A DNA stretch of 41,094 bases from an uncultured Oscillospiraceae bacterium. GTDB lineage: Bacteria > Bacillota > Clostridia > Oscillospirales > Oscillospiraceae. The stretch lies in contig CANQBC010000020.1 of NCBI GenBank assembly GCA_947589225.1, forward strand, positions 1-41,094. Reading direction: 5' to 3'. This document shows, piece by piece, positions 952-14,317 of this stretch. Numbering within the stretch: the stretch's first letter is position 1; every line of letters begins with the position of its first letter. The notes under the pieces are model-generated. The model worked only from the letters and a program-made list of their open reading frames with translations, was not told the DNA's origin and ran no database searches. Made by a program: the position numbers and the translations under genes.

Positions 952-1561
952 TCTTCCTTTGCCAGTACTTTTCTCTGCCAGCTTCGCTTGCCGCATTTCG
1001 GGCATTTCATGTATCTTGTTCTGCCAGTGTGCGGCGCAAGATTGGTTTGCCAATAGGTCGGCACATATCTGTGGCCGCATTTTTGACAGGCATAGTATCC
1101 CGCTTTCTGCTCAATGCCTACCGCAATAAAAGCGACCGCAAAAATCATCACAAGGACAAACGTGAGAAGCACGACCCGCAGCCACATGGGCATTGAGACA
1201 AAGCAAGCCACAAACACCAGCGCAAACCCGGCGAGAACCGCCGGAAAAACGATCCAGTATTCCGCCCTCAGCAGCTGCCCGTTCTTTTCCTCCATCTCCC
1301 GCTTCATTGCCAGAAGATTTTCCTCTGCCCGCTTGTCATAGAATTCTGCCATGATTCTTTCGCCCGACAGGAGTTATTGACACTGATTTTCAGAAAATCG
1401 CAAAGCTTCAGCATAATTCCCGAATCGGGCATGGATTTTCCCGTCTCCCATTTTGATATTGCCCTGTCGCTGATACCCAGCTTCTCGGCAAGTACGGCTT
1501 GGGTCATGCCTTGTTCCTTTCTGCATGACGCTATGAATTTTCCGATTTTGATTTGATCCAT
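948..1561 (-). pseudogene. XRE-family regulator with membrane and zinc-ribbon domain, frameshifted
   Basis: Start is ATG 1561, with AAGGAGGT 7 nt upstream and a possible TATACT -10 (1592-1587). The first part is a Cro/C1-type HTH (GMTQAVLAEKLGISDRAISKWE) reaching LKISVN. It then slips out of frame, while the next frame continues as LLSGERIMAEFYDKRAEENL, two hydrophobic segments and a CxxC...CxxC zinc ribbon (YYACQKCGHRYVPTY, MKCPKCGKRSW). This order, HTH then two TM helices then zinc ribbon, is a known clostridial regulator layout of about 205 aa. One missing base near 1373 (AAT AAC where AAT GAA would restore the frame) explains the break. If translated as it stands, two separate peptides result, one DNA-binding and one membrane. 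Confidence 0.75.
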
Positions 1562-1707
1562 ATCGGGCACCTCCTTTCATGGCTTCAGTATATCCGAAGC
1601 GGGTGAAAATGAACACGAACCGGCGGTTGATTTTTGCCGACTCTACTGCTGGTTGGGCGGCTGAATTCCCCATTTTCGCTGCGATTCACTCCCCGATAAA
1701 CGGGAAT

Positions 1708-2028
1708 TCATTTGTTCCATTCGTATTCTGATTGCCATCCGTCAGGGATATCGGTGACATCTATTTCCCTATACAGCATAGCCGCATCGTAAGAAAACGA
1801 ATTTACAATCCATTCGTCAACCGAATACCCTTTTAATTCATAAACTCTGTTGTCTTTATCTCCATCTACAATTCCGATTTGCTTTCCACGCTCACCATAG
1901 TCATCTAATGCGCCGTATGGTACATAGGTCTTGTCGCCCCATATTATGGTTGCATACCCATCGCCTTCTCCAGACTCCCAATTCCCTTTTGTGTTCCCGG
2001 AGTCTCTGAGCCGCGGCTGGGGTGAATA
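1708..2028 (-). pseudogene. C-terminal remnant of a small hypothetical (lipo)protein
   Basis: Reading leftward, the frame is open from a TAA at 2031-2029 to TGA at 1710-1708, with no usable start. It encodes 106 residues including ATIIWGDKTYVPYGAL, GKQIGIVDGDKDNRVYELKG and YSVDEWIVNSF, and ends SEYEWNK. This resembles the C-terminal half of small secreted proteins common in Firmicutes (WGDKTY...QIG..DGD motifs); I do not know a function. The 5' part, including any signal peptide, is missing, so it is a truncated gene. Confidence 0.45.
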
Positions 2029-2044
2029 TTATCCAATGGAGTGT

Positions 2045-2076
2045 AAAAAAATCCCGCCAGCATACTTACTGACGGG
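2045..2076 (-). terminator. Intrinsic terminator for the M24 peptidase remnant
   Basis: On the minus strand CCCGTCAG (2076-2069) pairs with CTGGCGGG (2060-2053), including one G-T pair, around an 8-nt loop and is followed by ATTTTTTT. It lies 40 bp beyond the M24 stop codon. Confidence 0.7.
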
Positions 2077-2116
2077 TGATAATTCAATATTCCCGGTCAC
2101 CTTATTCAGTCTGAAC

Positions 2117-2806
2117 TTATAATTCAACTAACTTTCCGTTTGAAAAATAATATATATTCTCTTTTTTATACCCATACTTGGAATTTGGGACGCTAATGTG
2201 CGGCTCAAATGTAAAATAATCGATTGAGGACAACAATAAGTGATTGCCCTTTTCGATATAGACTCGTTCATCTTTACTTTTCACAATTGAATGCCCGAGG
2301 TTACCCATAAAATCAAGGTTAATAAAACCATCGTCAATTATCAGACTATTCATATGCAGATAGAGTTCTTCAAATGTAGTTCGAGGTGTTACAAAATCAA
2401 TTAACTCTTGATGTAATCGTTCTTCCATAAGTAAGCCATTACGCCATTCATTGTTTTGAATTTTATCTATACGATCAACTACCTCACCATTTTCGATAAT
2501 AATAGTGCGGGCATAATCTCCCCAAATATTATTGTTTTGGGGACTAAGGTCAATTGTAATAATATCATTATTGCTGATCACTCTATCAGAAGTGATGTAT
2601 TCCCTCCCTGAAATGGATACGGATGTTTCATCTCCTGAAAATACAAATGCGCCAACATCCCAATACCAAAACGAATCCGCACCTAATGATAGCATCTATT
2701 CTTCGCACAGCCGTCTTACATCAAGTAAATTCATATTAGGTTTAATAATCGTTTTTATATATAAAATCGTTTCTTTTGCTATTCTTTGTAAGTCCTTATA
2801 TTCCAT
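2117..2806 (-). pseudogene. M24-family (Xaa-Pro aminopeptidase-like) metallopeptidase with in-frame TAG
   Basis: Start is ATG 2806 with an AGGAG site nine bases upstream. The frame encodes MEYKDLQRIAKETIL..., meets TAG at 2698-2696 (codon 37), and continues in frame as MLSLGADSFWYWDVGAFVF to the stop at 2117. The pita-bread metal ligands are all visible: Asp in IITIDLSP, Asp in GDYART, His in NLGHS, Glu in FTFEPH and Glu in KKENIYYF. Length without the stop would be 229 aa, normal for the short single-domain M24 group. TAG probably replaces AAG (Lys). Restart at ATG 2695 would give a 192-aa product lacking the N-terminal helices. Confidence 0.75.
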
Positions 2807-2867
2807 GCGATTCAACTCCTGTAAATCCCGATTTGAACTCGTCAAAATCTTAGAGTGTTACCACCCA

Positions 2868-2984
2868 TTATAGGGCGACAATAAAAACCTCCGAAAGCCT
2901 TGCAAATAAAGGGTTTGCCGCAGTTTCCTCACCGTATCTCATTATCTGGTTCCACACACTGTTACCCTTGCTCTGACAGCTCAT
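2868..2984 (-). pseudogene. Short remnant of an unidentified gene
   Basis: ATG 2984 to TAA 2870-2868 encodes 38 residues including GNSVWNQIMRYGEE and NPLFARLSEVF. It lies immediately upstream of the M24 remnant and is divergent from TnpV. The text looks like real protein, perhaps the first residues of a small element gene, but I cannot name the family and the reading frame stops early. Confidence 0.3.
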
Positions 2985-3091
2985 AAGGGAAAAAGCAAGG
3001 GAAGGAAAATCCCACAACAAGCTATAACAGAGTGTGACAATTGGGAACCTGTGACGTATGTGCGAACAATATTATAGCGGAGGATTTCATA

Positions 3092-3469
3092 ATGAACAAG
3101 TACATTTTTGACGAAAGTAACGGACTGTGGTATGAGCTTCAGGGGGACTATTATATCCCCTGTCTGAGCCTTCCGGCAGCGGAAGAAAAGCCGATTGGCC
3201 TTTGGGGGCAGCGGCATCTGCGGTATATCCGAGAACACAGGATAGCTCTTTATACCGAGCTTCTGACAAGCGGCAGGCTGAACGCCTACCTTGCCGATCT
3301 GGACGAGGAAGCCGAGGCTATGCTTTCCCGGCTGGTAAAACAGTTTGCCAAAAAGGAGGGCGTGACGGAAAAACTCAAAGCCAAGGACGGTATGAAGTGG
3401 GTGCAGGCTATGAACAATATCCGCAACCGAGCCGCCGAGGTCGTTTACAACGATTTGATTTACAACTGA
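3092..3469 (+). CDS. TnpV family transposon-encoded protein
   Basis: This 125-aa protein (MNKYIFDESNGLWYEL...) shows the TnpV pattern: YELQGDYYIPCL, PIGLWGQRHLRYIREHR, LLTSGRLNAYLADLDEEA, then a C-terminal helix with WVQAMNNIRNRAAEVV. TnpV proteins accompany TnpX-type transposons and ICE modules in Clostridia; their role is unknown. ATG 3092 is chosen because GCGGAGG ends eight bases upstream. The length is normal, so the gene looks intact, yet no recombinase is next to it. It is followed by a slice of an ABC ATPase, indicating an insertion or deletion scar. Confidence 0.85.
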   Translation: MNKYIFDESNGLWYELQGDYYIPCLSLPAAEEKPIGLWGQRHLRYIREHRIALYTELLTSGRLNAYLADLDEEAEAMLSRLVKQFAKKEGVTEKLKAKDGMKWVQAMNNIRNRAAEVVYNDLIYN

Positions 3470-3492
3470 TACCCGCAACACAGGGAAGGATC

Positions 3493-3606
3493 ATGAACCT
3501 GTTGACAGACAACATCCCCCGGACGGAGGGGCAAATCCTCTTTGATGGGATGGATATTCTCAAACTGGGCAAGCATACTCGCGGCGTGAACTCACGGTAT
3601 TCTTAA
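3493..3606 (+). pseudogene. Fragment of an ABC transporter ATPase
   Basis: Starting at 3493, residues MNLLTDNIPRTEGQILFDG and MDILKLGK match the stretch immediately after the Walker A motif of antibiotic/bacitracin-type ABC ATPases (…GKST-LMNLL…GxIxxDGxDI). The preceding bases do not encode a Walker A, and after LGK the match is lost before the Q-loop, so both ends are cut. Only about 25 codons remain. This marks an ancient insertion into, or deletion around, an ABC transporter gene next to TnpV. Confidence 0.6.
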
Positions 3607-3695
3607 TCATCAGGCCGAAAAGGAAAAAAACAAACTTATGATAAATTGAGCGTATTTTGGCAGACTTTGTCAGGCCAATTTCGTAGAATCGCCTC

Positions 3696-3724
3696 TTGCG
3701 GTTTCCCATCCTCTGTGGTATCAT
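3696..3724 (+). promoter_or_regulatory. Sigma70-type promoter of the DUF4317 gene
   Basis: TTGCGG (3696-3701), 17-bp spacer, TATCAT (3719-3724). Transcription would start near 3731, giving a leader of about 25 nt before ATG 3756. Confidence 0.65.
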
Positions 3725-3755
3725 TACCCTTACCGCATTTTCAGGAGGGAAAAAC

Positions 3756-4880
3756 ATGACACGCAAAGAATTGGCAGAGCTGAGGCGGCATTTTCGACCG
3801 GATCGGGCGGCGATCCAGCGGATCTACGGCTGTTACGTGAACGCCAACCGACAGATTATCGCCTACATAGACGAGCCTCTGAGCACCATGGCTCAGAACG
3901 AACAGGAGAAATACCTGGGGCTTTTGAAAAAGAGCCTTTCCGGAGGGCTGGGCCGGAACCTCATCGACATTGTATTCTCCACTCAGCAGGTGGCCGATAG
4001 CGAGGAGCACGGGCTTTTGATGGAGCTTCGCGATTCCAAGCTCCAGAACAAGGAGGCGCGGGACAGGCTCTACGATAAAATCATCTCCGCGCTGGATATG
4101 GAGGACTCCAACTACGTGATCCTCCTGGTCCACGACTCCTACGACATCCCCCGGAAGAACAAGGACGGCTCGGAGGCGGACTCCGAGGACGTATATAATT
4201 ACATCCTCTGCGCCGTCTGCCCCACCAAGGACGTAAAGCCGGAGCTTCAATTCTTCCCCGGCGACAATGAGTTTCACAGCTCCGCCGGAAGTCAGGTGAT
4301 CGCCCCCACCGAGCTTGGCTTCCTCTTCCCCGCCTTCGACGACAGGGCCGCCAACATCTACAACGCCCTTTTCTACACCCGGAACGCCTCCGACACCCAC
4401 TCCGACGTGATCGCCGCTCTCTTCCATGTGGACCTGCCCATGTCGGCGGGCGAACAGAGGGAAGCCTTTGAGTCGGCGCTGAGCGACGCTTTGGGCGACG
4501 AGTGCGGCTTTGAGACAGTCCAGGCGCTGAACGACCGGATGGCCGCCCAAATTCGGGAGCACAAGGAGGAAAAAGATCCCGAACCCCTGGCCATGACCGC
4601 CGGAGAGGTTGGGGATATGCTCACAGACATGGGTGTCTCCGGCGAGGCGGTGGAGCGCTTCAAGACCCGCTGCGGCGAGACTCTGGGCGAGGGCGCGGTT
4701 ATCAAGCCTGAAAACGTCATCGATGAAAAGAAGTTCGTGGTCAGGGCCGACGAGCTCACCGTCTCCGTCAGCCAGGAGGAGAGCTTCCGTTTGGAGTCCC
4801 GCGTCATTGACGGCCGGAAGTACCTCCTCATCCCCGTAGGCGCAACCGTGGAGATCAACGGCATGGAAACTAAGGTCTGA
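3756..4880 (+). CDS. DUF4317 family protein
   Basis: This 374-aa soluble protein (MTRKELAELRRHFRPDRAAI...) has the hallmarks of DUF4317: an N-terminal RRHFRPDRAAIQRIYGCYVN, a central NYVILLVHDSYDIPRKN and ALFYTRNASDTHSDVI, and a C-terminal KKFVVRADELTVSVS with DGRKYLLIPV. The function of the family is unknown. ATG 3756 follows AGGAGG (3743-3748) by seven bases. No signal peptide or membrane helix. It is transcribed alone, with a promoter just upstream and a terminator just downstream, and its higher GC and unbroken frame contrast with the decayed genes on both sides. Confidence 0.9.
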   Translation: MTRKELAELRRHFRPDRAAIQRIYGCYVNANRQIIAYIDEPLSTMAQNEQEKYLGLLKKSLSGGLGRNLIDIVFSTQQVADSEEHGLLMELRDSKLQNKEARDRLYDKIISALDMEDSNYVILLVHDSYDIPRKNKDGSEADSEDVYNYILCAVCPTKDVKPELQFFPGDNEFHSSAGSQVIAPTELGFLFPAFDDRAANIYNALFYTRNASDTHSDVIAALFHVDLPMSAGEQREAFESALSDALGDECGFETVQALNDRMAAQIREHKEEKDPEPLAMTAGEVGDMLTDMGVSGEAVERFKTRCGETLGEGAVIKPENVIDEKKFVVRADELTVSVSQEESFRLESRVIDGRKYLLIPVGATVEINGMETKV

Positions 4881-4922
4881 GTACGGCGGAATACTGAACG
4901 CGACCCCCTTTTTTGAATAAAA

Positions 4923-4967
4923 CCCCGTTTTCAAACAGTTTTCTCGAAAACGGGGTCTCATCTTTTT
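4923..4967 (+). terminator. Intrinsic terminator after the DUF4317 gene
   Basis: CCCCGTTTTC (4923-4932) and GAAAACGGGG (4946-4955) are perfect reverse complements, followed by TCTCATCTTTTT. They lie 40 bp after the DUF4317 stop codon. Confidence 0.8.
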
Positions 4968-5152
4968 GAAAAACATTGGGAGAGAGACGACCTGCTCTCA
5001 ACGGTCATGACGGCATATGCAACGTGGACAAGTCTCTTCGCGGCATGACATGAACTTATAAGTCAAGATGAAGTCATTCCCAAAATGAAATGTTGACCTC
5101 ACAATATTTATGAACGTCAGTCTTTCCTTTTCCAAAATTCAGTGATATACTA

Positions 5153-5476
5153 TCAAAAAAGCGAGGTGTCAGGAATGGAATGGATCTGGTACATGATTGC
5201 CGCCTTGGGGGCCGGGATCGGGATCGGACTTGCGGGGCTGTCCGCCGCCATCTGGCGGGTTAGGCGCCTGAACATTTCATCTGCCTGCCGGTCGATCTCC
5301 GCAAGATAGGCATCGAGCTTGCCCGAAAGAAGCATCCCGGTATATATACCGTTGCGATGCTTCTCCAGATACTCCCTTCGCCTCCTGCCCCAAGTGCCGA
5401 TGGATCCAGCCTCCGGCGCAATCAGATTCGGGATCATGTAGTCGCCCTCGCGGTGGTAAGTTAATTGTGCACTCAT
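5153..5476 (-). pseudogene. Second TnpV family gene, C-terminus replaced
   Basis: ATG 5476, preceded by AAAGGAG, gives MSAQLTYHREGDYMIPNL, IGTWGRRRREYLEKHRN, LLSGKLDAYLAEIDRQA and RLTRQMA, all TnpV-like. After about residue 76 (near 5249) the sequence becomes a Pro/Ile-rich tail antisense to the ATP-synthase-c-like helix, and the usual W-x-N-x-I-R-N helix is missing. It is therefore a truncated TnpV, about 107 aa as it stands, and differs clearly from the copy at 3092. Confidence 0.65.
5175..5309 (+). pseudogene. Possible N-terminal helix of an ATP synthase c subunit, truncated
   Basis: ATG 5175 is preceded by GAGGTG and a TATACT -10-like box (5146-5151). The first 26 residues read MEWIWYMIAA, then LGAGIGIGLAGLSAAI, a glycine-repeat helix typical of the first transmembrane segment of F/V-type ATP synthase proteolipid subunits. 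After residue 26 the text loses this character and stops at codon 45, inside a region antisense to the second TnpV gene. I infer that the TnpV-bearing fragment replaced the rest of the gene. A chance Gly-rich helix cannot be ruled out. Confidence 0.35.
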
Positions 5477-5653
5477 TTTTATAACTCCTTTTTTGATACC
5501 TACATTGTACCAGCCGTCACGCCAAAAGACGAATATACAAAAGAAAACGCTCAGATAAGCATTTCTGCCCTTCTGAGCGTCCTCCTCGGATATGTGCCGG
5601 TGCCGGATTTTTGTTATTTTATAAAGTCCCTTATGAATAACCGCACCATAACT

Positions 5654-5692
5654 GGTAACGCAGTTTGATACAATGGTATCGACTGCGTTACC
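5654..5692. repeat. Long near-perfect palindrome
   Basis: GGTAACGCAGT (5654-5664) and ACTGCGTTACC (5682-5692) are exact reverse complements. The centre holds a second matching pair, GATA (5667-5670) and TATC (5677-5680). No long T run follows, so it is a poor terminator; it may be a recombination or protein-binding site at the left edge of the restriction-like island. Confidence 0.6.
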
Positions 5693-5820
5693 GTTATATT
5701 GTGCCGGCGCGCCAAGAATTTCCGCCCTAGCGCGTTGTATTTTATTTGTTGTGATGCCTGCATAGCGCGGTTTTGAGAGGGACTTTCGGGGTGAAAGCGC
5801 AGACTCTGGTCGATGGCTAC

Positions 5821-5889
5821 CGCTAAACGACCGCGATCCGTTAAATTACCGGGGTTTCGTTAAACAGCGGGGGTATCGTTAAACGACCG
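5821..5889 (+). repeat. Four direct repeats upstream of the island promoter
   Basis: CGCTAAACGACCG (5821), CGTTAAATTACCG (5839), CGTTAAACAGCGG (5858) and CGTTAAACGACCG (5877) recur at 18-19-bp steps, sharing CGYTAAAY. The array ends 21 bp before the -35 box. Their even spacing on one DNA strand suggests cooperative binding of a regulator; iterons are an alternative. About 130 bp before them (5690-5820) shows nothing I can assign. Confidence 0.65.
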
Positions 5890-5909
5890 AAAATGTATGC
5901 GCCCACCGA

Positions 5910-5939
5910 TTGCGTGCGGCCCGTATCGCGTGGTATAAT
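5910..5939 (+). promoter_or_regulatory. Promoter of the restriction-like island
   Basis: TTGCGT (5910-5915), 18-bp spacer, TATAAT (5934-5939). The start site would fall near 5946, and a GGAGG ribosome site (5986-5990) leads into ATG 5997. Confidence 0.75.
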
Positions 5940-6000
5940 ATATATTTGTGAGAGTTTAAGCAGTTTTGTGTCGCCATATGGAAACGGAGGTCAAACATGA

Positions 6001-6810
6001 GCGAGAAGATTTACTGGATCATTAAACGCCTTATTTGCGCCTGAACTGGCATGGGAGCAGGGAATCGTTGAGTTTGAAGATTTTTCTATAGGTTATATTG
6101 ACACGCATGAGGAGGAGCAAAAGCCGGTTATAGCCCTAAAGACAGAAAGCTCAGAGAAAATCAGTAGTGGCGACATCTATTATCGTTATCGCGCTCGAAG
6201 CGAAAAAATAAAGTATCCCGAAATGGCTAGAATTATTGATGTTCGGGCTCGAAAAAAACGTGAACAAATCCTGCGGTTAATGGAAGCAATAAGGAAACGC
6301 GGCACTACAAACCTTGGCATTGTGAATTATAGTAGCGGCCGATTTAGCACGCCCCTCGGTGTGGATATATCAGTTGATACGTGCCTCATTGTAAAAGTGT
6401 TGAGGAAAGCTAAATATATTAAAGAGGGGAGCTTTGATGAAACCAACGGTCACCCTGTGCTAAAGGTCACGGGAAATATTGACTTGGCAGAAGAAGTTTC
6501 GATCCCCGATATAGAGCCAGATGTTCAGAATCCATACTTACAAAAGGATTTGGCCGAAAAATTACAAATCGGAAAACAGCGCCTACATGCACTTATTTGG
6601 TATCACAATATGAAAGGCGCGAAAAAATACCACATGGAAGTATCAACTTTTTCAAACAGCAAGGTGCATAAGTTTTCGGACGTGGCACTTCAGTTTCTTG
6701 CGGAGAAAATAAATGAACACAAAGAAACCCCTGAATGGCTAACGGAAGTATATCATCTATATCTACAGCGTGACAACGATATGGGAGGAATCATTCGTGA
6801 TACGGTTTAG
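6001..6810 (+). CDS. AlbA_2 (Schlafen)-type domain protein, N-terminus lost or frameshifted
   Basis: Frame 1 is open from 6001 to TAG 6810 (269 codons). Its first part (LFAPELAWEQGIVEFEDF, GDIYYRYRARSEKIKYPE) resembles the C-terminal end of the AlbA_2/divergent AAA-4 domain found in defence and regulatory proteins. Then follow a basic helix and two HTH-like modules (GTTNLGIVNY, DLAEKLQIGKQRLHALI). The well-placed ATG 5997 lies in another frame and stops after 15 codons at TGA 6042. The only in-frame ATG is 6223, giving 195 aa without the AlbA_2 part. So the usual 100-residue N-terminus is missing, through deletion, or a +1 shift near 6041 joins the frames. The end overlaps the next gene by 14 nt. 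Role unknown; first gene of the island. Confidence 0.55.
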   Translation, partial: ARRFTGSLNALFAPELAWEQGIVEFEDFSIGYIDTHEEEQKPVIALKTESSEKISSGDIYYRYRARSEKIKYPEMARIIDVRARKKREQILRLMEAIRKRGTTNLGIVNYSSGRFSTPLGVDISVDTCLIVKVLRKAKYIKEGSFDETNGHPVLKVTGNIDLAEEVSIPDIEPDVQNPYLQKDLAEKLQIGKQRLHALIWYHNMKGAKKYHMEVSTFSNSKVHKFSDVALQFLAEKINEHKETPEWLTEVYHLYLQRDNDMGGIIRDTV

Positions 6811-8512
6811 GAACCCTGGGACACAGTACTCAACCCAGATTCAAGTCATAAAATTGCTTTATAATGCCTTACATGATCAGGCGTTCTTTACGCTTGACGA
6901 TATGGCTGTCGTGATTGCGCAGGGAAAAATGATGACCGCATATGGGTATGCGGGTGATGATGCGCTCCGTTTGAGCAATACAGACCAGAAGAGCAGGAAC
7001 TCCGCCTGGAATAACGCAAAGATGTATGCCGAGATATTTCGCATGCTGGGGTGGGTGACGCCTTACCATGAAAGCAATTCCTACCCCATGGTATTTACAT
7101 ATATAGGGACACATGTAGCCCAATCAACAGGGGATTGCTCTAAACTTTACGAACAGTGCGTCCTGGGCATCAATAGTCCAACGCTGTTGACCAGCAGGAT
7201 GCGATACGACGAGCGAGTACGGTTTTTTAAGTGCGCTTTACGCACATTTATTGACTTGGGCGGTGTCATGTACAAGCACGAATTATGCCTTGGTCCGATG
7301 AGCGTCAACGATGAGGATGAACAGGCATATCAGGACATGATCCAATCCCTGAAGTCCTTGAGAGGCAGCCATAGAAGGCTGGATAGGGCCTTTAACGCAT
7401 TGGCGGAAAGCCTTGGCATGAAACCTGGCTCCGTTGATAACTGCACCCGACTTCCGATCGCGCTTATGAAAAGCTGCGGCTGGGTAGAAGATGTCTCTGA
7501 CCGTTCTCTGTATGGAAGCGCTTTGGATTGCTTGCAGATCACACAGCATGGCATTGAGACATATGAGAGCCTAGCGGATATGTATGACCTGCGCCTTGAC
7601 CAATATCTGCGTCTCGATGAACCTACGCAGCAGTCTATGATCCGGCTGGGCATATACTCCATGCTGCAGCGGGCGGGCTATGATATTTCCGACGTTCAGG
7701 CACAGGTTGCCGAGGACAGGGCGCAGAGTAGGGGGATCATCGGCGACAAAGATCTGCTGTTCTCGCCTTACCAGACAATTCGGCGCGCACAGGTCGAAAG
7801 AGCCCTAGGGATTGACATGGGGATTGGGCTCGAGTCCGGGCTTCATACGGAGACTTTTGGCAGTGCGGTCAAAGATCGGGAGGCACTGTACGGCATTGAG
7901 ACATGGAGCTTGAATATCCCAGAAGCGGCCTCCAGAGAGCTTCTGGCTTTACCAGAAGATCAGGCTTTCCTGCATCAGGTCGATCAAATGGTCGAAGGGG
8001 GAAAAAGCAGCCGCGAGATTGTAGACGCGCTTTTCGATCATTATATTGATGCGACGAAAGATACCTTTTATCCGCTGATTGCTACACTATTCAAGATCAT
8101 GGGGTTTGATTGCCGCTTCTCAAGAGCAGGGGATAACGGTGCCCGTTGGGACGCGATCATTGATGACACAGAGAGAAGTATACCCATCGAGATAAAATCC
8201 CCCACAGAAGAACAACATCTTTCCATTAAGGCCATCCGACAGGCCCTGGAGAATAAAATCATTCTCTTATCCCGTAGAACATATATGACCTTGCCTGAAG
8301 TCTCTACGCTGGCCGTAGGTTATTATATGCCCAATGAGCGAGCTGAGGTGGCCCGGCTGATTTCAGACATCAGAACAACATATGGATACAGAGTTGGCGT
8401 GATCGACCTGAAGTCATTGCTTACCATCGCGGTCAGCATCCTGGTGGACGGGAAGGGTTTTGAAAAAGAAAAACTTTATACGTTAGAAGGACTGGTAAAT
8501 GCGGATTTTTAA
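6797..8512 (+). CDS. PD-(D/E)xK nuclease-like protein, candidate restriction subunit
   Basis: GTG 6797 is preferred because GGGAGG lies eight bases upstream; GTG 6770 would add nine residues. The 571-aa product has an N-terminal half of helical, winged-helix-like modules (residues 1-300; LQITQHGIETYESL is a typical wing end) and a C-terminal nuclease motif: GARWDAIIDD with Asp452, then PIEIKS with Glu465 and Lys467, followed by a helix with conserved Gln. Spacing and order fit PD-(D/E)xK endonucleases, and the layout recalls type IIS enzymes with separate recognition and cleavage parts. It overlaps genes on both sides by 14 nt, indicating translational coupling. With methyltransferases downstream, a restriction role is inferred. 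No close named family is recognised. Confidence 0.6.
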   Translation: MIRFRNPGTQYSTQIQVIKLLYNALHDQAFFTLDDMAVVIAQGKMMTAYGYAGDDALRLSNTDQKSRNSAWNNAKMYAEIFRMLGWVTPYHESNSYPMVFTYIGTHVAQSTGDCSKLYEQCVLGINSPTLLTSRMRYDERVRFFKCALRTFIDLGGVMYKHELCLGPMSVNDEDEQAYQDMIQSLKSLRGSHRRLDRAFNALAESLGMKPGSVDNCTRLPIALMKSCGWVEDVSDRSLYGSALDCLQITQHGIETYESLADMYDLRLDQYLRLDEPTQQSMIRLGIYSMLQRAGYDISDVQAQVAEDRAQSRGIIGDKDLLFSPYQTIRRAQVERALGIDMGIGLESGLHTETFGSAVKDREALYGIETWSLNIPEAASRELLALPEDQAFLHQVDQMVEGGKSSREIVDALFDHYIDATKDTFYPLIATLFKIMGFDCRFSRAGDNGARWDAIIDDTERSIPIEIKSPTEEQHLSIKAIRQALENKIILLSRRTYMTLPEVSTLAVGYYMPNERAEVARLISDIRTTYGYRVGVIDLKSLLTIAVSILVDGKGFEKEKLYTLEGLVNADF

Positions 8513-9551
8513 AGAGAACAGAGACCACTCCCGGCTCGCCATCCTGAAAGACATCCCGGTCTCCCTGGAGATACACCAAGGTATCCCTGGCACCGCACAT
8601 TTCAGAGATGGCGGGAGTGATCAGATCAGCTGCCTCGGATGCACAGTACCGAGATGTATGTACTTATCTGACAGTGACATAGAGTGCAGTCACATAAAGG
8701 GTTTTCCATGTGACAGGTCAGTCATGGCCTGCCCTGTCGATGCCATCGCTTGGAACGATCGATCCGCCGCCCCTGTGATCGACCAGCAGAGGTGCATCCG
8801 CTGCGGTATCTGCGTAAGCCGCTGCCCTGTAGGCGCCCTGTACTTTTCAGACCAGGGGGAACCGGAAGTCAATATGACACCGGGAGATAGTGTCATAAAT
8901 ATGCGGCCGGATCAAGCGGGCCAAGATCTCCACGCTTGCCAGATCGAACAACTGCTGCAAGTCCCCCGAAGCGGCATCTCTCTCCAGGCTTCTGATCCGT
9001 TATTTGAGACCATTTATGAGAAGCTGCAGCGGCTCGGAAACGCCTATCATAACCCTGTAGGCCGGAACCTGCTGATCGCGCTGGGCTGCAGATGTGCGAT
9101 GCGAAGGATCGGCGACGTATACACGCGGATGGACGCTGTTTATTCGTCTCCGGCGGGTTCTTTCGGCGCTGTAGAGATCGAATTTGGAAAGGACACGTTA
9201 GATGCATCCAGGGGTATCCTGGATGATATTGCTGTTCTCAACACTCGATACGGAGTGCATAAGCACAATAATAGAGCACTCGTCATTTGCTTGCAGCTAC
9301 CCAACGAACGGCAGGGCTATTGGCAAGTCGTAAAAGATATACGGGTCGTAGAAGGAATCAAACTCAGCACCATTACTGTCGGCGCGCTGATGTTTCTTCT
9401 GTGGAACGGTTGCGTATTTGAACCAGAAAATGATCGATATTACATCGACTTTGACAATATGGATCTGCGGCATATTATATGCATCCAAGCCGATTGTGAC
9501 AGCATTCCATTGAGCAATGGGGAGCTTGGAATCATGGAACCTAATAAGTGA
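8499..9551 (+). CDS. 4Fe-4S ferredoxin-like protein fused to a possible nuclease domain
   Basis: ATG 8499 overlaps the previous stop by 14 nt. The 350-aa protein has ten cysteines in residues 45-109. C99-xx-C102-xx-C105-xxx-C109-P is a canonical [4Fe-4S] motif; C45-xx-C48-xxxx-C53, C63, C71 and C78-P suggest a second cluster. The C-terminal part (165-350) has a pattern like PD-(D/E)xK folds: Asp212 in RMDAVYSS, then AVEIEFG with Glu226 and Glu228. Lysine is replaced by Glu, as in the D...ExE centre of BamHI. A helix with DDIAVLNTRYG and a LVICLQLP strand follow. I know Fe-S clusters in AddB and Cas4 nucleases, but not this fusion within a restriction operon. Redox or structural role, DNA binding and cutting are all inference. 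Confidence 0.6.
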   Translation: MRIFKENRDHSRLAILKDIPVSLEIHQGIPGTAHFRDGGSDQISCLGCTVPRCMYLSDSDIECSHIKGFPCDRSVMACPVDAIAWNDRSAAPVIDQQRCIRCGICVSRCPVGALYFSDQGEPEVNMTPGDSVINMRPDQAGQDLHACQIEQLLQVPRSGISLQASDPLFETIYEKLQRLGNAYHNPVGRNLLIALGCRCAMRRIGDVYTRMDAVYSSPAGSFGAVEIEFGKDTLDASRGILDDIAVLNTRYGVHKHNNRALVICLQLPNERQGYWQVVKDIRVVEGIKLSTITVGALMFLLWNGCVFEPENDRYYIDFDNMDLRHIICIQADCDSIPLSNGELGIMEPNK

Positions 9552-9571
9552 TTGAAAAGTGTTGAATAGTC

Positions 9572-9600
9572 TTGACAAGTGTTTCCTGTTCTGGTATCCT
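9572..9600 (+). promoter_or_regulatory. Promoter of the methyltransferase pair
   Basis: TTGACA (9572-9577), 17-bp spacer, TATCCT (9595-9600), then GGAAGGGGG before ATG 9640. AAGTGTT occurs at 9557 and again across the -35 box at 9577, a possible operator. A separate promoter lets methylation precede nuclease expression. Confidence 0.75.
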
Positions 9601-9639
9601 TTATAACAGTTTTTCTTTACAGGAAGGGGGTACTGTAAT

Positions 9640-10812
9640 ATGTCGGAGACTATAGTGGGAACAAAACAGGCGGCTCAAATGCTGGGAGTAAGTATTTCGA
9701 CCATATACAGAATGGTAGACAATGGGATACTTCAGCCGTCAAAAACTCCTGGTGGACAACGTAGGTTCCCAGTGGATCAATTGGATGAATATAAGAAAAA
9801 GAGCCGTAGTATAGTTGCTCCTCAAAATCCCTATCAAATGAGAATCAATGTTGTATCTGGTGAAATTGAAGAGGATATAGACGATGGCCCTTCATTTGCT
9901 GCTTCTGTAATCGAGGAAGGCTTGGAAGAAGATACAGAATACCCTGCTGTTGATGACAAGCCAGTAGATCCACGTAATACGTTGAACGATTTGAATGGAT
10001 CGCAATGGCTTCCAGAAACCAAGAGCTTCTTTTTTCAGAAAGGACTTGGTGCAAAGCATCCGCACGCACAAATCGAACGCCAGCACCCTGCTCCCTTTTC
10101 CTTTCAGGATGTTTCTCACCTTGTCACTTTTTTTACTAAAAAAGGAATGAAGGTGCTTGATCCTTTCGGCGGCGTGGGGTCAACCGCAAAAGCCTGCGAA
10201 CTTGAGGGCCGTATTTGCATCAGCATTGAACTTCAGAAAAGATGGCATGAATTGGCGATTAAACGCCTTGAATCTGAGGTGCGAGAAGGAGCATCTCAGA
10301 AGCATATCTTTATTCTTGGGGATGCACGTAAAGAGCTGAAGAAGTTTGATGATTGTTCATTCGACTTTATGGTCACTAGCCCTCCCTATTGGTCAATTTT
10401 GAATAAGAAGGCTGACTATAAAGTAAAAAGAGAACGATTAGCTAATAATCTGGCTACCAATTATTCGGATAATGACGAAAATGACCTAGCGAATATAGAA
10501 AGCTATGATGAGTTCCTCCGCGTTCTGGTTGACGACGTATTTTTAGAATGCGGAAGGGTCCTTCGGCCGAAAAAATATATGTGTATAGTAGTTTCTGATT
10601 TCAGAAATAAGTCAGAATTTATCAGCTTTCATAGTGATCTGATTCAAGCGCTAAATCATAGAGCAACAGCAGACGGCTACAAAATTACATTGCAAGGTGT
10701 CAAAGTCCTTCTTCAGAATCATAAAACGCTTTTGCCATACGGGTATCCCTTTGCTTATGTTGAAAATATTCACCACCAATATGTACTTGTATTCAGGAAG
10801 GACAAGAAATGA
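9640..10812 (+). CDS. HTH-DNA methyltransferase fusion (N4-cytosine/N6-adenine type)
   Basis: This 390-aa protein has two parts. Residues 6-52 are an excisionase/BldC/MerR-like winged HTH (TKQAAQMLGVSISTIYRMVD, TPGGQRRFPVDQLDEY). An acidic linker (75-110) follows. Then comes an amino-methyltransferase with HPAPF (149-153), SAM motif I DPFGGVGST (174-182) and catalytic motif IV TSPPYW (246-251). The order motif I before IV with a short gap fits a gamma/alpha arrangement, and SPPY suggests N4-cytosine. The HTH could bind operators of the island, as some methyltransferases repress their own genes; this is inference. It has its own promoter, ends 1 nt before the second methyltransferase start, and has AT-richer codons than the chromosome around it. 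Confidence 0.85.
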   Translation: MSETIVGTKQAAQMLGVSISTIYRMVDNGILQPSKTPGGQRRFPVDQLDEYKKKSRSIVAPQNPYQMRINVVSGEIEEDIDDGPSFAASVIEEGLEEDTEYPAVDDKPVDPRNTLNDLNGSQWLPETKSFFFQKGLGAKHPHAQIERQHPAPFSFQDVSHLVTFFTKKGMKVLDPFGGVGSTAKACELEGRICISIELQKRWHELAIKRLESEVREGASQKHIFILGDARKELKKFDDCSFDFMVTSPPYWSILNKKADYKVKRERLANNLATNYSDNDENDLANIESYDEFLRVLVDDVFLECGRVLRPKKYMCIVVSDFRNKSEFISFHSDLIQALNHRATADGYKITLQGVKVLLQNHKTLLPYGYPFAYVENIHHQYVLVFRKDKK

Positions 10813-10813
10813 G

Positions 10814-11641
10814 ATGAGGGATTATAGCGGATTGATTTGTGGGAATTCCGATATTCTTCTTCAAGAAATGCTGGATGCTGGTGTCAAGGTCGATCTCGTA
10901 TTGACCGATCCTCCCTATAACCTTAACAAGGACTTCGGAAACAATAGTGATAGCCTTCCTTTAGAGGCTTTTCTGGAGGTTTCAAAAAAACGAATCGAAC
11001 TGTGTCGTGACCTTCTTGTTCCAAATGGAAGTATAATATGGTTTGGTATACATCACTATATTGGCTTTATTCAGTCTATCATGTACGAGGTGGGCCTGAA
11101 TTATAGACGAATGAATATATGGTACTATGAGAATGGTTTTAGTAGAAATACTACGGCTCCTCTTACTCAATATGAACCGTTCCTTTGGTTTTCCAAGTCC
11201 CCCAAAAAGTGGATCTACAACGTAGACGATGTCCGTGTCCCGTACAAAAGCGCTGAACGGTTAAGGAATCCTGTGTATTATAAGAATTCCAAAGGCGAAC
11301 GTGTCAAATGGGAACCAAACCCTCTTGGGGCAATGCGCGGGGACGTATGGACATTTCCAACCCTTGCTGGTAAACTGTTCCAAGATGAAAAAACGCCACA
11401 TCCTACACAAAAACCGGAATCACTTATTACTGAAATTATAAAAGCTTTTTGTCCCAAAAATGCAGATGGATTCTATGAAGGTGTAATCTTAGATCCATTT
11501 CATGGTTCCGGCACGGTAGGAGTTTGTTGTGAAAAGTTAAACAGACAAGGCCACAAGATCAAATGGATAGGAATAGAGCTTGAGGATCGTTGGTGTGCCG
11601 TGGCACAGGAACGCCTTAGCAAAATTAATTTGAAAAAATGA
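10814..11641 (+). CDS. Beta-class DNA methyltransferase (N4/N6)
   Basis: ATG 10814 lies one base after the preceding TGA, so translation is probably coupled; an upstream in-frame extension overlaps the previous gene and lacks homology-like text. The 275-aa enzyme has motif IV DPPYNL at 32-37, a central target-recognition stretch, HPTQKP (196-201) and SAM motif I DPFHGSGT (227-234), the beta order. It transfers methyl from SAM to adenine N6 or cytosine N4 in DNA. Its sequence class differs from the first methyltransferase, so the two probably modify different strands or sites. It lacks a clear ribosome site of its own beyond AGGAAGG. Confidence 0.88.
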   Translation: MRDYSGLICGNSDILLQEMLDAGVKVDLVLTDPPYNLNKDFGNNSDSLPLEAFLEVSKKRIELCRDLLVPNGSIIWFGIHHYIGFIQSIMYEVGLNYRRMNIWYYENGFSRNTTAPLTQYEPFLWFSKSPKKWIYNVDDVRVPYKSAERLRNPVYYKNSKGERVKWEPNPLGAMRGDVWTFPTLAGKLFQDEKTPHPTQKPESLITEIIKAFCPKNADGFYEGVILDPFHGSGTVGVCCEKLNRQGHKIKWIGIELEDRWCAVAQERLSKINLKK

Positions 11642-12586: not shown

Positions 12587-13377
12587 CCTAGCAGCAGCTT
12601 GTCATCCGCCTCGTCAGAGCCGGTGGTCTGCCCGAATCTGGCAAGCAGATCCTCCACTGTCAGACGCTTTTTGGCCTCCCCGGAGATGTCAAGGACTATT
12701 TTTCCCTCGAACATCATAATGAGACGGTTTCCATGGACAATGGCGTCGCGCATGTTGTGGGTTATCATAAGGGTGGTCAGCTTGTCCTTCCGCACGATCC
12801 GCTCGGTGGCGTCCAGCACCTTGGCGGCGGTCTTGGGATCCAGCGCGGCGGTATGCTCGTCCAACAGGAGCAGGTCAGGCCGCCGGAATGTGGCCATCAA
12901 CAGCGTCAGCGCCTGGCGCTGTCCGCCGGAGAGCAGGCCCACCTTGGTGGTAAGCCGATCCTCGAGCCCCAGATCCAGTATCTTCAAAAGCTCACGGTAT
13001 TCGCTCCGTTCCTTCGCTGTGATGCCGCGTTTCAGGGTGCGGTGCTGTCCGCGCCGGGCGGCCAGGGCCAGATTCTCCTCTATCTGCATGGAGGCGGCTG
13101 TCCCCATCATGGGATCCTGGAATACACGGCCGATGTACTTCGCCCGCTTATGCTCGGCAAGGTTTGTCACGTCCACGCCTCCAATGGAGATGGAACCCTC
13201 GTCCACGGGCCAGACGCCTGCCACGGCGTTCAGAAGCGTGGATTTGCCCGCTCCGTTGCCGCCGATGACGGTGACGAAATCCCCGTCGTCAAGGTGCAGA
13301 TCCACACCCCGCAGGGCCGCTTTCTCGTTGACCGTGCCGCGATTAAAGGTCTTTCGGACGCCCACGACGTCAAGCAT
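12583..13377 (-). CDS. ABC transporter ATP-binding protein (TrpZ/YcjV-like)
   Basis: This 264-aa ATPase carries Walker A GGNGAGKST, Q-loop VFQDP, signature LLSGGQRQ, Walker B LLLLDEHTAALDP and H-loop MITHN. It energises the permease encoded just upstream, with an 8-nt overlap, and its stop overlaps the barnase gene start by 4 nt. The trio with a PF04392-type binding protein and a branched-chain-like permease matches the TrpXYZ type of uptake system; the substrate is not visible from sequence and tryptophan is only one known case. Confidence 0.9.
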   Translation of the reverse strand: MLDVVGVRKTFNRGTVNEKAALRGVDLHLDDGDFVTVIGGNGAGKSTLLNAVAGVWPVDEGSISIGGVDVTNLAEHKRAKYIGRVFQDPMMGTAASMQIEENLALAARRGQHRTLKRGITAKERSEYRELLKILDLGLEDRLTTKVGLLSGGQRQALTLLMATFRRPDLLLLDEHTAALDPKTAAKVLDATERIVRKDKLTTLMITHNMRDAIVHGNRLIMMFEGKIVLDISGEAKKRLTVEDLLARFGQTTGSDEADDKLLLG

Positions 13378-14317
13378 GGGTCTTACCTCCCTTCTTTGAC
13401 TTTCTGGTGAAATATTTCTTCCTCCAGTAAGGGATCGCCAGGAACACAGCCACCACGGTGGCGGTCAGGAGCTTTAAGTCCGTAGACTCCAGGCCCAGCC
13501 TCAGCACCAGGGTTATCACCGTGTAATAGATGATGGCGCCAATGACGGATGAGAGCAGCTTCAGGGAGAAGTTTCGGAAGATCCTCTTGAAAAGCACCTC
13601 TCCGATAATGACGGCGGCCAGGCCGATGACGATGGCGCCGCGGCCCATGTCGATGGTGTTGCTGCCGGAGTACTGGGCCAGAAGCGCGCCGGACATGGCC
13701 ACCAGGCCGTTGGATACCACAAGGCCCAGCACCTTCGCCTTGTCCGTATTGATTCCCTGGGCGCGGGCCATGCTGCCGTTGGAGCCGGTGGCGCGCAGGG
13801 AGGAGCCCAGCTCCGTGCCGAAGAACCAGTAAAGCAGACCGATGACCGCCGCCACCGCGATCACCAGCAGGATAAGCGGGTTACTCAGCCCCAGGCTGCG
13901 CACAAAACGGGAGGAGACTATCAGGGAGTTCCTGTCCGGGCTGAGGGCCAGAGATGCCTTGGTGGCCGCGGTGTCCCCGATGGCCATGATGCGCAGGTTC
14001 AGCGAGTAGAGGGCCAGCTGTGTCAGTATGCCCGCCAGGATGGCCGGTATTCCGCACGCCGTGTGGAGAAGCCCTGTGACGAGGCCGGCCAGCATCCCGG
14101 CGACGACCGCCATCAGAAGCGCCAGCCAGGGATCCCACCCCAGGGTGATGAGAACCGCGCACACCGCGCCTCCCGTGGTCAGCGAGCCGTCCACCGTAAG
14201 GTCGGCGATGTCCAGGATCTTATAGGTAATGTAGACACCGATGGCCATGATACCCCATATCAGCCCCTGTCCAAAGGCGTTGGGGAGCGAGTTGATAAAC
14301 GACTGGATGATGTTCAT
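13370..14317 (-). CDS. ABC transporter permease
   Basis: The 315-aa protein is almost wholly hydrophobic, with eight or nine likely membrane helices, and contains GVYITYKILDIADLTVDGSL and the loop GSNGSMARAQGINTDKAK typical of permeases of the TrpXYZ/branched-chain amino acid type. It ends in a basic cytoplasmic tail (RKKYFTRKSKKGGK). It is the second gene of the leftward operon, separated from the binding-protein gene by a 90-bp gap with a terminator-like hairpin, and overlaps the ATPase gene by 8 nt. Confidence 0.9.
   Translation of the reverse strand: MNIIQSFINSLPNAFGQGLIWGIMAIGVYITYKILDIADLTVDGSLTTGGAVCAVLITLGWDPWLALLMAVVAGMLAGLVTGLLHTACGIPAILAGILTQLALYSLNLRIMAIGDTAATKASLALSPDRNSLIVSSRFVRSLGLSNPLILLVIAVAAVIGLLYWFFGTELGSSLRATGSNGSMARAQGINTDKAKVLGLVVSNGLVAMSGALLAQYSGSNTIDMGRGAIVIGLAAVIIGEVLFKRIFRNFSLKLLSSVIGAIIYYTVITLVLRLGLESTDLKLLTATVVAVFLAIPYWRKKYFTRKSKKGGKTHA

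Follow-up and report, generated by a model that had tools for sequence, protein, structure and literature searches.

Four genes resembling a Type IIT restriction-modification system, with a ferredoxin-like domain on a putative restriction subunit, in an uncultured Oscillospiraceae bacterium

INTRODUCTION

Type IIT restriction-modification (R-M) systems have two different catalytic sites and, in general, two methyltransferases (MTases); in some of them a large subunit recognises the site while a small subunit only cuts, as set out in the available sections of a review (PMC4081073). Four adjacent genes, g2 to g5, appear to follow this plan in a 41,094-nucleotide (nt) stretch of DNA from an uncultured Oscillospiraceae bacterium (contig CANQBC010000020.1 of assembly GCA_947589225.1; 'the window' denotes this whole stretch), and the product of one of them, g3, carries a conserved iron-sulfur (Fe-S) type domain. 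We put at roughly two in three (0.67) the probability that g2–g5 are a horizontally moving Type II R-M system on the Type IIT plan with g3 as its Fe-S small subunit.

The closest described counterparts are BspD6I/BstNBI, BtsI and BsrDI (PMC4081073, PMC2909958, as far as the accessible text goes), which share with the predicted products of g2–g5 a large subunit combining recognition with catalysis, a small subunit providing the second site, and two MTases. The window's system differs from them in that g2 and g3 have no detectable homology to an AlwI/BspD6I profile and in that the putative small subunit is ferredoxin-like. BbvCI and Bpu10I (PMC4081073, PMC6326814) are similar in having two different nuclease subunits and an asymmetric target; they differ in that g2 and the g3 nuclease domain have no match in the PDB at E ≤ 1, and the accessible descriptions of BbvCI and Bpu10I mention no Fe-S domain. 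The published account of Type IIT, in its available part, fits g2–g5 (PMC4081073). What appears to be new is the conserved ferredoxin-like domain on a putative restriction subunit, together with nuclease parts that are covered by no family model tested.

RESULTS

Four genes stay together in all intact relatives

A preliminary description of the locus had proposed that five tightly packed genes form one restriction or defence system: an AlbA_2-like gene (g1), a nuclease-like gene (g2), a fusion of ferredoxin-like and nuclease-like parts (g3) and two MTase genes (g4 and g5). All five open reading frames (ORFs) are present, with g2 and g3 at their proposed lengths, and the proposal held for the following four:

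6797 to 8512, forward strand: g2, 571 amino acids (aa), putative large restriction subunit; an N-terminal region of about 400 aa of unknown fold, then a C-terminal PD-(D/E)XK-like domain
8499 to 9551, forward strand: g3, 350 aa, ferredoxin-like plus nuclease-like, putative small restriction subunit
9640 to 10812, forward strand: g4, 390 aa, N-terminal HTH_17/MerR-like domain (residues 8–54; HTH, helix-turn-helix) fused to a DNA MTase
10814 to 11641, forward strand: g5, 275 aa, DNA MTase, probably N6-adenine

The start of g2 was set at the GTG at 6797, matching its relatives; a longer frame could open at the GTG at 6770, but the relatives begin with MIRF or MLRF. The gene overlaps described earlier are real and measure 14 nt both for g1/g2 and for g2/g3. 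The latter is kept at 14 nt in six of nine intact systems and ranges from 14 to 29 nt across all nine, in each of which g3 lies directly 3′ of g2. Since the start of g3 overlaps the end of g2, the two proteins are probably made in step.

Relatives (numbered L033 onwards) were sought with several probes. Scanning the genome contigs of 84,980 species with six exact peptide patterns from g2, which reach close relatives only, returned 23 stretches and six confirmed loci (L033–L038), each with g2, g3, g4 and g5. Whole g3 was rejected as a probe: it matched generic ferredoxins in 75 of 99 genomes. Searches after that were made with g2, with g4 or with the nuclease part of g3. A g3 profile run against 398 genomes of the phylum, with five candidates scored per genome so that some may be missed, found one locus besides the window's own (L040), with the gene order g4-g5-g2-g3 and a g3 only 32% identical. 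Searching 245 genomes of the class with g4 (E ≤ 1e-30) gave three besides the window's own: L048, with g2-g3 and g4-g5 convergent; L049, which is the L038 locus again; and L050, where a distant MTase (34%) lies beside an ORF matching another Type II nuclease model.

Together with the window, these searches yielded nine distinct loci with all four genes intact, arranged in four ways, with named hosts in Clostridia and Negativicutes. The genes are collinear in six (the window, L033–L036 and L038), whereas g4-g5 are divergent from g2-g3 in L037, convergent with them in L048 and placed ahead of g2 in L040. Any g2 or g3 was seen at 11 distinct loci, and all nine with full-length copies of both also carry both MTases; no intact g2-g3 pair lacking either MTase was found (0/9, most of them located through g2). 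The preliminary description had named a conserved neighbourhood as support for its proposal, and homologues of g1–g3 lying mostly apart from MTases as grounds to abandon it. In this sample the former was found, for four genes rather than five, and the latter was not. As in Type II R-M systems, MTase genes are linked to nuclease genes in all nine intact loci, the nuclease identity being deduced from motifs. Conservation counts throughout exclude L049, as the same locus as L038, and the degraded L043 and L051/L032.

In the degraded locus L043 (4420–7121), g4 and g5 are whole, while g3 is reduced to its last 198 residues, which include its nuclease part but not its Fe-S domain. The remaining 965 bases of the contig contain no g2, and the repeat array upstream of g4 (see below) persists. 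Decay of the restriction side with both MTases left whole speaks for an R-M system. L051 retains a 104-aa ORF with the N-terminus of g2, and the sole MTase beside it is 28% identical to g5.

The identity matrices of the four proteins correlate (Mantel r 0.83–0.93, p 0.0001–0.017). g3 evolves fastest, at 32–69% identity to the window's copy; g5 is 71–88% identical in the eight relatives. The unit is sparsely distributed: g2 was found in 2 of 300 genomes of the family (the window's own and the fragment in L051), and 2 of 394 genomes of the order had the nuclease domain of g3 (the window's own and the decayed L043). Among the named carriers, Selenomonas (now Centipeda) felix Marseille-P3560, a Negativicute, and Ruminiclostridium cellobioparum DSM 1351, of the Clostridia, have g2 proteins 70–71% identical to the window's, a similarity that points to exchange of the unit across classes. 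Neither viral contigs nor plasmids gave a match to g2 or g3, and phages gave a single one for g3, at 15% and in the ferredoxin part only. We conclude that g2–g5 form a real R-M-like unit of four genes, which is probably mobile.

Two homologous nuclease-like domains

The putative catalytic motifs of g2 and g3 lie as follows:

8132 to 8251, forward strand: g2 catalytic motif region (RWDAII...IEIKSPTEEQ...RQALE), homologous to the C-terminal domain of g3
9114 to 9227, forward strand: g3 catalytic motif region (GDVYTRMDA...VEIEF...DTLDASRGILDDI), with E-x-E in place of E-x-K

D452, E465 and K467 of g2 (E465-I-K467) are invariant in 9/9 systems, as are D206, D212, E226, E228 and D232 of g3 (E226-x-E228). 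BLASTP links the C-terminal part of g2 to that of g3 in five of the six loci L033–L038 (E 2e-7 to 6e-6), and hhalign aligned the two domains with a probability of 92.1 (E 6.3e-7) for seven-row profiles and 94.2 (E 1.1e-7) for nine-row ones. The two domains are homologous and look PD-(D/E)XK-like, the fold itself being suggested by motif and context. With motif residues kept in both proteins and the domains homologous but distinct, g2 and g3 would offer the two different catalytic sites of a Type IIT enzyme.

Membership of an already described family, which would have spoken against a new system, was not found for g2 or the nuclease part of g3 in any family tested. On g2, Pfam gave nothing above cut-off. 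NCBIfam, PADLOC and PHROGs gave no significant match to g2 or to the C-terminal 200 residues of g3 (among the best 25 of 101 NCBIfam matches for g3), and added ferredoxin, HTH and MTase models to g3–g5. Pfam matches among seven g2 and seven g3-nuclease sequences concerned one or two members each and were taken as chance (best, Rep_fac_C at 0.00085 on one g2). Assignment of g2 to the AlwI/BspD6I/FokI-like family was also rejected, only a weak winged-helix-like match being seen. PF09491 was not among the g2 matches at E ≤ 1; a separate PF09491 search matched nothing, controls included, and is uninformative. The architecture had been called unrecognised. This stands for the nuclease domains, which none of the family models tested covers, but not for the plan of two nuclease subunits and two MTases, which is that of known Type IIT systems (PMC4081073, available part).

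A ferredoxin-like domain with eight invariant cysteines

Pfam confirmed the ferredoxin-like part of g3:

8631 to 8825, forward strand: g3 Fe-S domain, C45-x2-C48-x4-C53 ... C78-P ... C99-x2-C102-x2-C105-x3-C109-P (Fer4, Pfam E 3.5e-8)

Its eight cysteines (C45, C48, C53, C78, C99, C102, C105 and C109) are invariant in 9/9 systems, down to 32% identity, and a ninth (C63) is kept in 8/9. The features of a 2[4Fe-4S] ferredoxin-like domain, namely eight cysteines placed as ligands, CxxCxxCxxxCP in the second half and a CP in the first half, are found in all nine. A nine-row profile of the domain gave 160 PDB matches at E ≤ 0.01, with polyferredoxins leading among the best 60 of the 160. The second half and the CP at 78 fit the two-cluster ferredoxin plan, while the first half is irregular, with C-x2-C-x4-C followed by a long gap to the CP; on these grounds binding of two [4Fe-4S] clusters by g3 is likely.

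Nucleases of the Cas4, AddB and Dna2 type have four cysteines around the nuclease core that hold one cluster. Like the predicted g3 protein, these enzymes join an Fe-S cluster to a PD-(D/E)XK nuclease (PMC7430649, accessible text). g3 is unlike Cas4 and AddB in that its eight cysteines form a separate N-terminal domain (residues 45–109) instead of flanking the nuclease motifs (206–243), and in lying beside MTases. Additional metals in restriction enzymes have been described as single structural sites of the Cys4 type (PMC4081073, available part). NotI, BslI, PacI and DpnI share with the predicted g3 protein a cysteine-bound metal, which is iron in the Cys4 site of NotI, but theirs are Cys4 structural motifs and g3 has eight cysteines in a ferredoxin-like domain. 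The main text of that review contains neither 'Fe-S' nor '4Fe'. Fusion of a nuclease to ferredoxin domains is not new as an idea: HEPN-T, a nuclease-family domain of conflict systems, has been described in fusion with a pair of ferredoxin domains (PMC3710099). HEPN is another fold, and the accessible text of that paper mentions no MTase pair. Papers on BREX and on phosphorothioation mention other proteins that have Fe-S or ferredoxin-type domains (PMC12839542, PMC10853773, available parts), and in the accessible text of PMC12602166 iron-sulfur occurs solely in a reference. Within the available text of open-licence papers, we found no Fe-S restriction endonuclease of the g3 kind.

Two methyltransferases of different motif order

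Both g4 and g5 match N6_N4_Mtase in Pfam (E 3.7e-20 and 1.8e-46), in agreement with the preliminary description, and g4 matches HTH_17 as well (3.3e-13). In g4, motif I (DPFGGVGS) precedes motif IV (TSPPYW); in g5, motif IV (DPPYN) precedes motif I (DPFHGSGT). By the usual motif rules, g4 fits an N4-cytosine and g5 an N6-adenine MTase. The PDB match of g5 to the MboIIA adenine MTase (1g60, 7.4e-24) agrees with this, and g5 is probably an N6-adenine MTase. For g4 the rule suggests N4-cytosine, and its PDB matches point both ways: the best is a putative modification methylase (2zie), followed more weakly by an N4-cytosine enzyme (8s9n, 1.5e-4) and the adenine MTase DpnA (5hek, 3.1e-4). Two MTases are present in all nine systems. 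Their differing motif order would suit an asymmetric target, each enzyme being predicted to modify one strand, as it would in a Type IIT system. g4 matches mad1 (1.8e-9) and mad2 (1.3e-12), as HTH and MTase; the gene set of MADS (mad1, mad2 and further mad genes) is not present, no mad model being found for g2 or g3, or among the best 25 of 60 matches for g5.

A repeat array over the putative g4 promoter

The gap between g3 and g4 contains two overlapping elements:

9552 to 9581, forward strand: three tandem decamers, TTGAAAAGTG TTGAATAGTC TTGACAAGTG, a putative operator of 10-bp direct repeats
9572 to 9600, forward strand: sigma-70-type promoter of g4-g5, TTGACA-17-TATCCT with a TG preceding the second hexamer; it overlaps the last decamer

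The preliminary description had listed two promoters. Promoter-like sites as a whole are not clearly above chance (17 against 11.8 ± 3.3 in shuffles), but the one at 9572–9600 has a counterpart in all six collinear loci, with a 17-base spacing in each and TTGACA in five (TTGATA in L035). In these loci, tandem decamers close to TTGAATAGTG overlap the promoter. A pattern derived from them and scanned over 11 sequences (at least 16 of 20 bases) also located the array upstream of g4 in L040, L043 and L048, bringing the total to 9 of 10 loci with g4, and had no other match in these sequences. Since the array overlaps the –35 box of g4 and the g4 product has an N-terminal HTH, autoregulation of g4 through its HTH is probable. 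MTases that repress themselves by binding an operator over their own promoter with an N-terminal HTH are known in R-M systems, as in M.EcoRII, M.SsoII and M.Ecl18kI (PMC3874152, available part). g4 shares the N-terminal HTH and a putative operator overlapping its own promoter, and would likewise be self-repressed; it differs in that its HTH is HTH_17/MerR-like and the array is of 10-bp direct repeats.

In L037 another repeat, close to AAGATAGATC and with a period of about 11, was seen by eye at 7837–8000, between a divergent HTH gene and g2. It is possibly a swapped control module, g4 of this locus being without the usual HTH and decamers. Small HTH genes adjoin the system in L036, L037, L038 and L048, and the apparent end of one is readable upstream of g4 in L040; in the window, none is evident among ORFs of at least 40 aa at 5480–6800.

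The upstream gene and the surroundings of the system

The AlbA_2 match of g1 is weak (Pfam E 0.15, 13 bits against a cut-off of 25.3) and spans profile positions 63–117 of 118. Within its frame (6001–6810) the first standard start is at 6223; in the window at 5997–6810, an ATG at 5997, after GGAGG, opens a 15-codon frame in another phase. A search of 148 further genomes for g1 gave no match at E ≤ 1e-6, and tblastn none better than E 0.28 in ten other loci of the g2–g5 family, of which L033 has just 308 bases upstream of g2. The C-terminal part of g1 resembles the defence candidate PDC-S19 (E 4.8e-7), and the gene looks like a leftover of another defence gene. As judged from these features, g1 is a 5′-truncated remnant without relatives in the other loci and lies outside the four-gene unit.

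Farther left are two TnpV transposon-type genes (3041–3469, forward; 5153–5476, reverse) and a DUF4317 gene (3696–4880, forward). This stretch is probably an insertion zone, adjoining ABC-transporter-like genes at 12.6–15.5 kb, the latter judged from translations. The lower GC reported for the system holds against the right flank (0.41–0.52 versus about 0.61); the left 6 kb is mixed (0.37–0.585).

PADLOC was run on eight chosen flanking ORFs of four of the nine systems (L035, L037, L038 and L048). Three of the four gave defence models, and the single L048 ORF gave none. Such neighbours support a putative defence role for g2–g5.

The system in L037 adjoins a HamB-HamA (Hachiman) pair (1460–5520), full-length to the PADLOC models; phage DNA polymerase, single-stranded DNA-binding and DUF2800 exonuclease genes lie nearby, so that the whole reads as a defence island set among phage replication genes. 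LmuA-like and SMC-like genes (PDC-S06, more weakly LmuB), together Lamassu-like, lie upstream of g2 in L035 and a PDC-S05 gene follows g5 (4291–7878 and 13239–14219); this locus is also near a phage-type DNA polymerase gene. Another Type II MTase lies near the system in L038.

DISCUSSION

The gene set, its conservation and co-occurrence in the sample, the conserved motifs, the homology of g2 to g3 and the conserved repeats support a Type IIT-like reading. On the model that we infer, g2 and g3 would form a complex and the system would restrict phages. g2 would use its long N-terminal region to bind an asymmetric target and would cut one strand at its C-terminal PD-(D/E)XK-like site, and g3, translated from its overlapping start, would cut the other strand with its related D...E-x-E domain. 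The ferredoxin-like domain, with two [4Fe-4S] clusters, would hold or position the subunit, a structural role that we favour, or else tie assembly to redox or iron state. g4 and g5 would protect one strand each; one of them may methylate cytosine-N4, the other probably adenine-N6. The HTH of g4 would bind the decamers that overlap the –35 box of g4, repressing g4-g5 and so balancing modification against restriction.

Several results weigh against this reading. Part of the co-occurrence follows from the way the loci were found, since six of the eight relatives were located with g2 itself; g3 led to L040 and g4 to L048. Sequence searches of the PDB matched no chain to g2 at E ≤ 10 and none to the nuclease domain of g3 at E ≤ 1, and the predicted structure of g3 is uninformative (mean pLDDT 36.5) and gives no structural support for a nuclease fold. 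Against an eight-row AlwI/BspD6I profile (seven sequences from 8 of 30 listed plasmid records, plus BspD6I), hhalign gave g2 an E of 0.068 (probability 0.8%) with a reversed control at 0.28, and g3 an E of 0.64 with a control at 0.62; as homology is undetectable, gene content and the domain common to g2 and g3 are the basis of the Type IIT-like role. The best ferredoxin matches fall mostly on the second half of the Fe-S domain and leave its irregular first half uncovered. Finally, L037 has no decamer array, and the N-terminus of its g4 differs.

How many genes belong to the system was weighed in both directions. Inclusion of g1 in a single five-gene defence system would agree with the 14-nt overlap of its stop with the start of g2 and with its resemblance to PDC-S19, but a gene that has lost its N-terminal part and standard start, and has no counterpart in the genomes and loci searched, makes this most improbable, and we regard the five-gene proposal as largely refuted already. 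It is also very unlikely that g2-g3 and g4-g5 are separate systems, such as an MTase pair and a nuclease pair with some other function: g4-g5 seem to have their own promoter and repeats and take up four different arrangements relative to g2-g3, yet the two pairs stay together through all four, in every intact locus, with correlated divergence.

A four-gene Type IIT-like system leaves the part played by g3 to be weighed. The motif lysine is missing from g3 in 9/9 systems (E228) and the gene evolves fastest of the four, as would a catalytically dead regulatory or specificity subunit beside a g2 that nicks or cuts alone. E-x-E active sites occur in restriction enzymes, for example in BamHI, and the invariance of D212, E226, E228 and D232 fits an active metal site; we consider a dead g3 unlikely. 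The preliminary description had cast the Fe-S protein as a restriction subunit or switch. The idea of a restriction subunit held up in this sample, g3 being linked to both MTases in 9/9 systems; the switch is conjectural. A redox or oxygen switch would permit restriction while the clusters are intact, under anaerobic, iron-replete conditions, and turn it off when they are lost. The invariant two-cluster cysteine spacing would suit it, as would the ferredoxin-like arrangement, in place of the single-cluster one of Cas4 and AddB, and the six named hosts from the g2 scan, which we take to belong to anaerobic lineages. With no redox partner gene in the four-gene unit, and with a purely structural role accounting for the same cysteine conservation, such a switch is possible but doubtful. 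The further proposal that cutting depends on the two-cluster domain, and that redox or iron state gates restriction in anaerobes, is put forward with somewhat greater reserve.

If our reading of g2–g5 is true, the ferredoxin-like domain on a restriction subunit would tie DNA restriction to Fe-S biogenesis, and perhaps to redox state as well, and could explain why aerobic purification and screening would miss such enzymes. Should gating by redox or iron also prove true, g2–g5 would encode an immune enzyme that senses the physiology of the cell.

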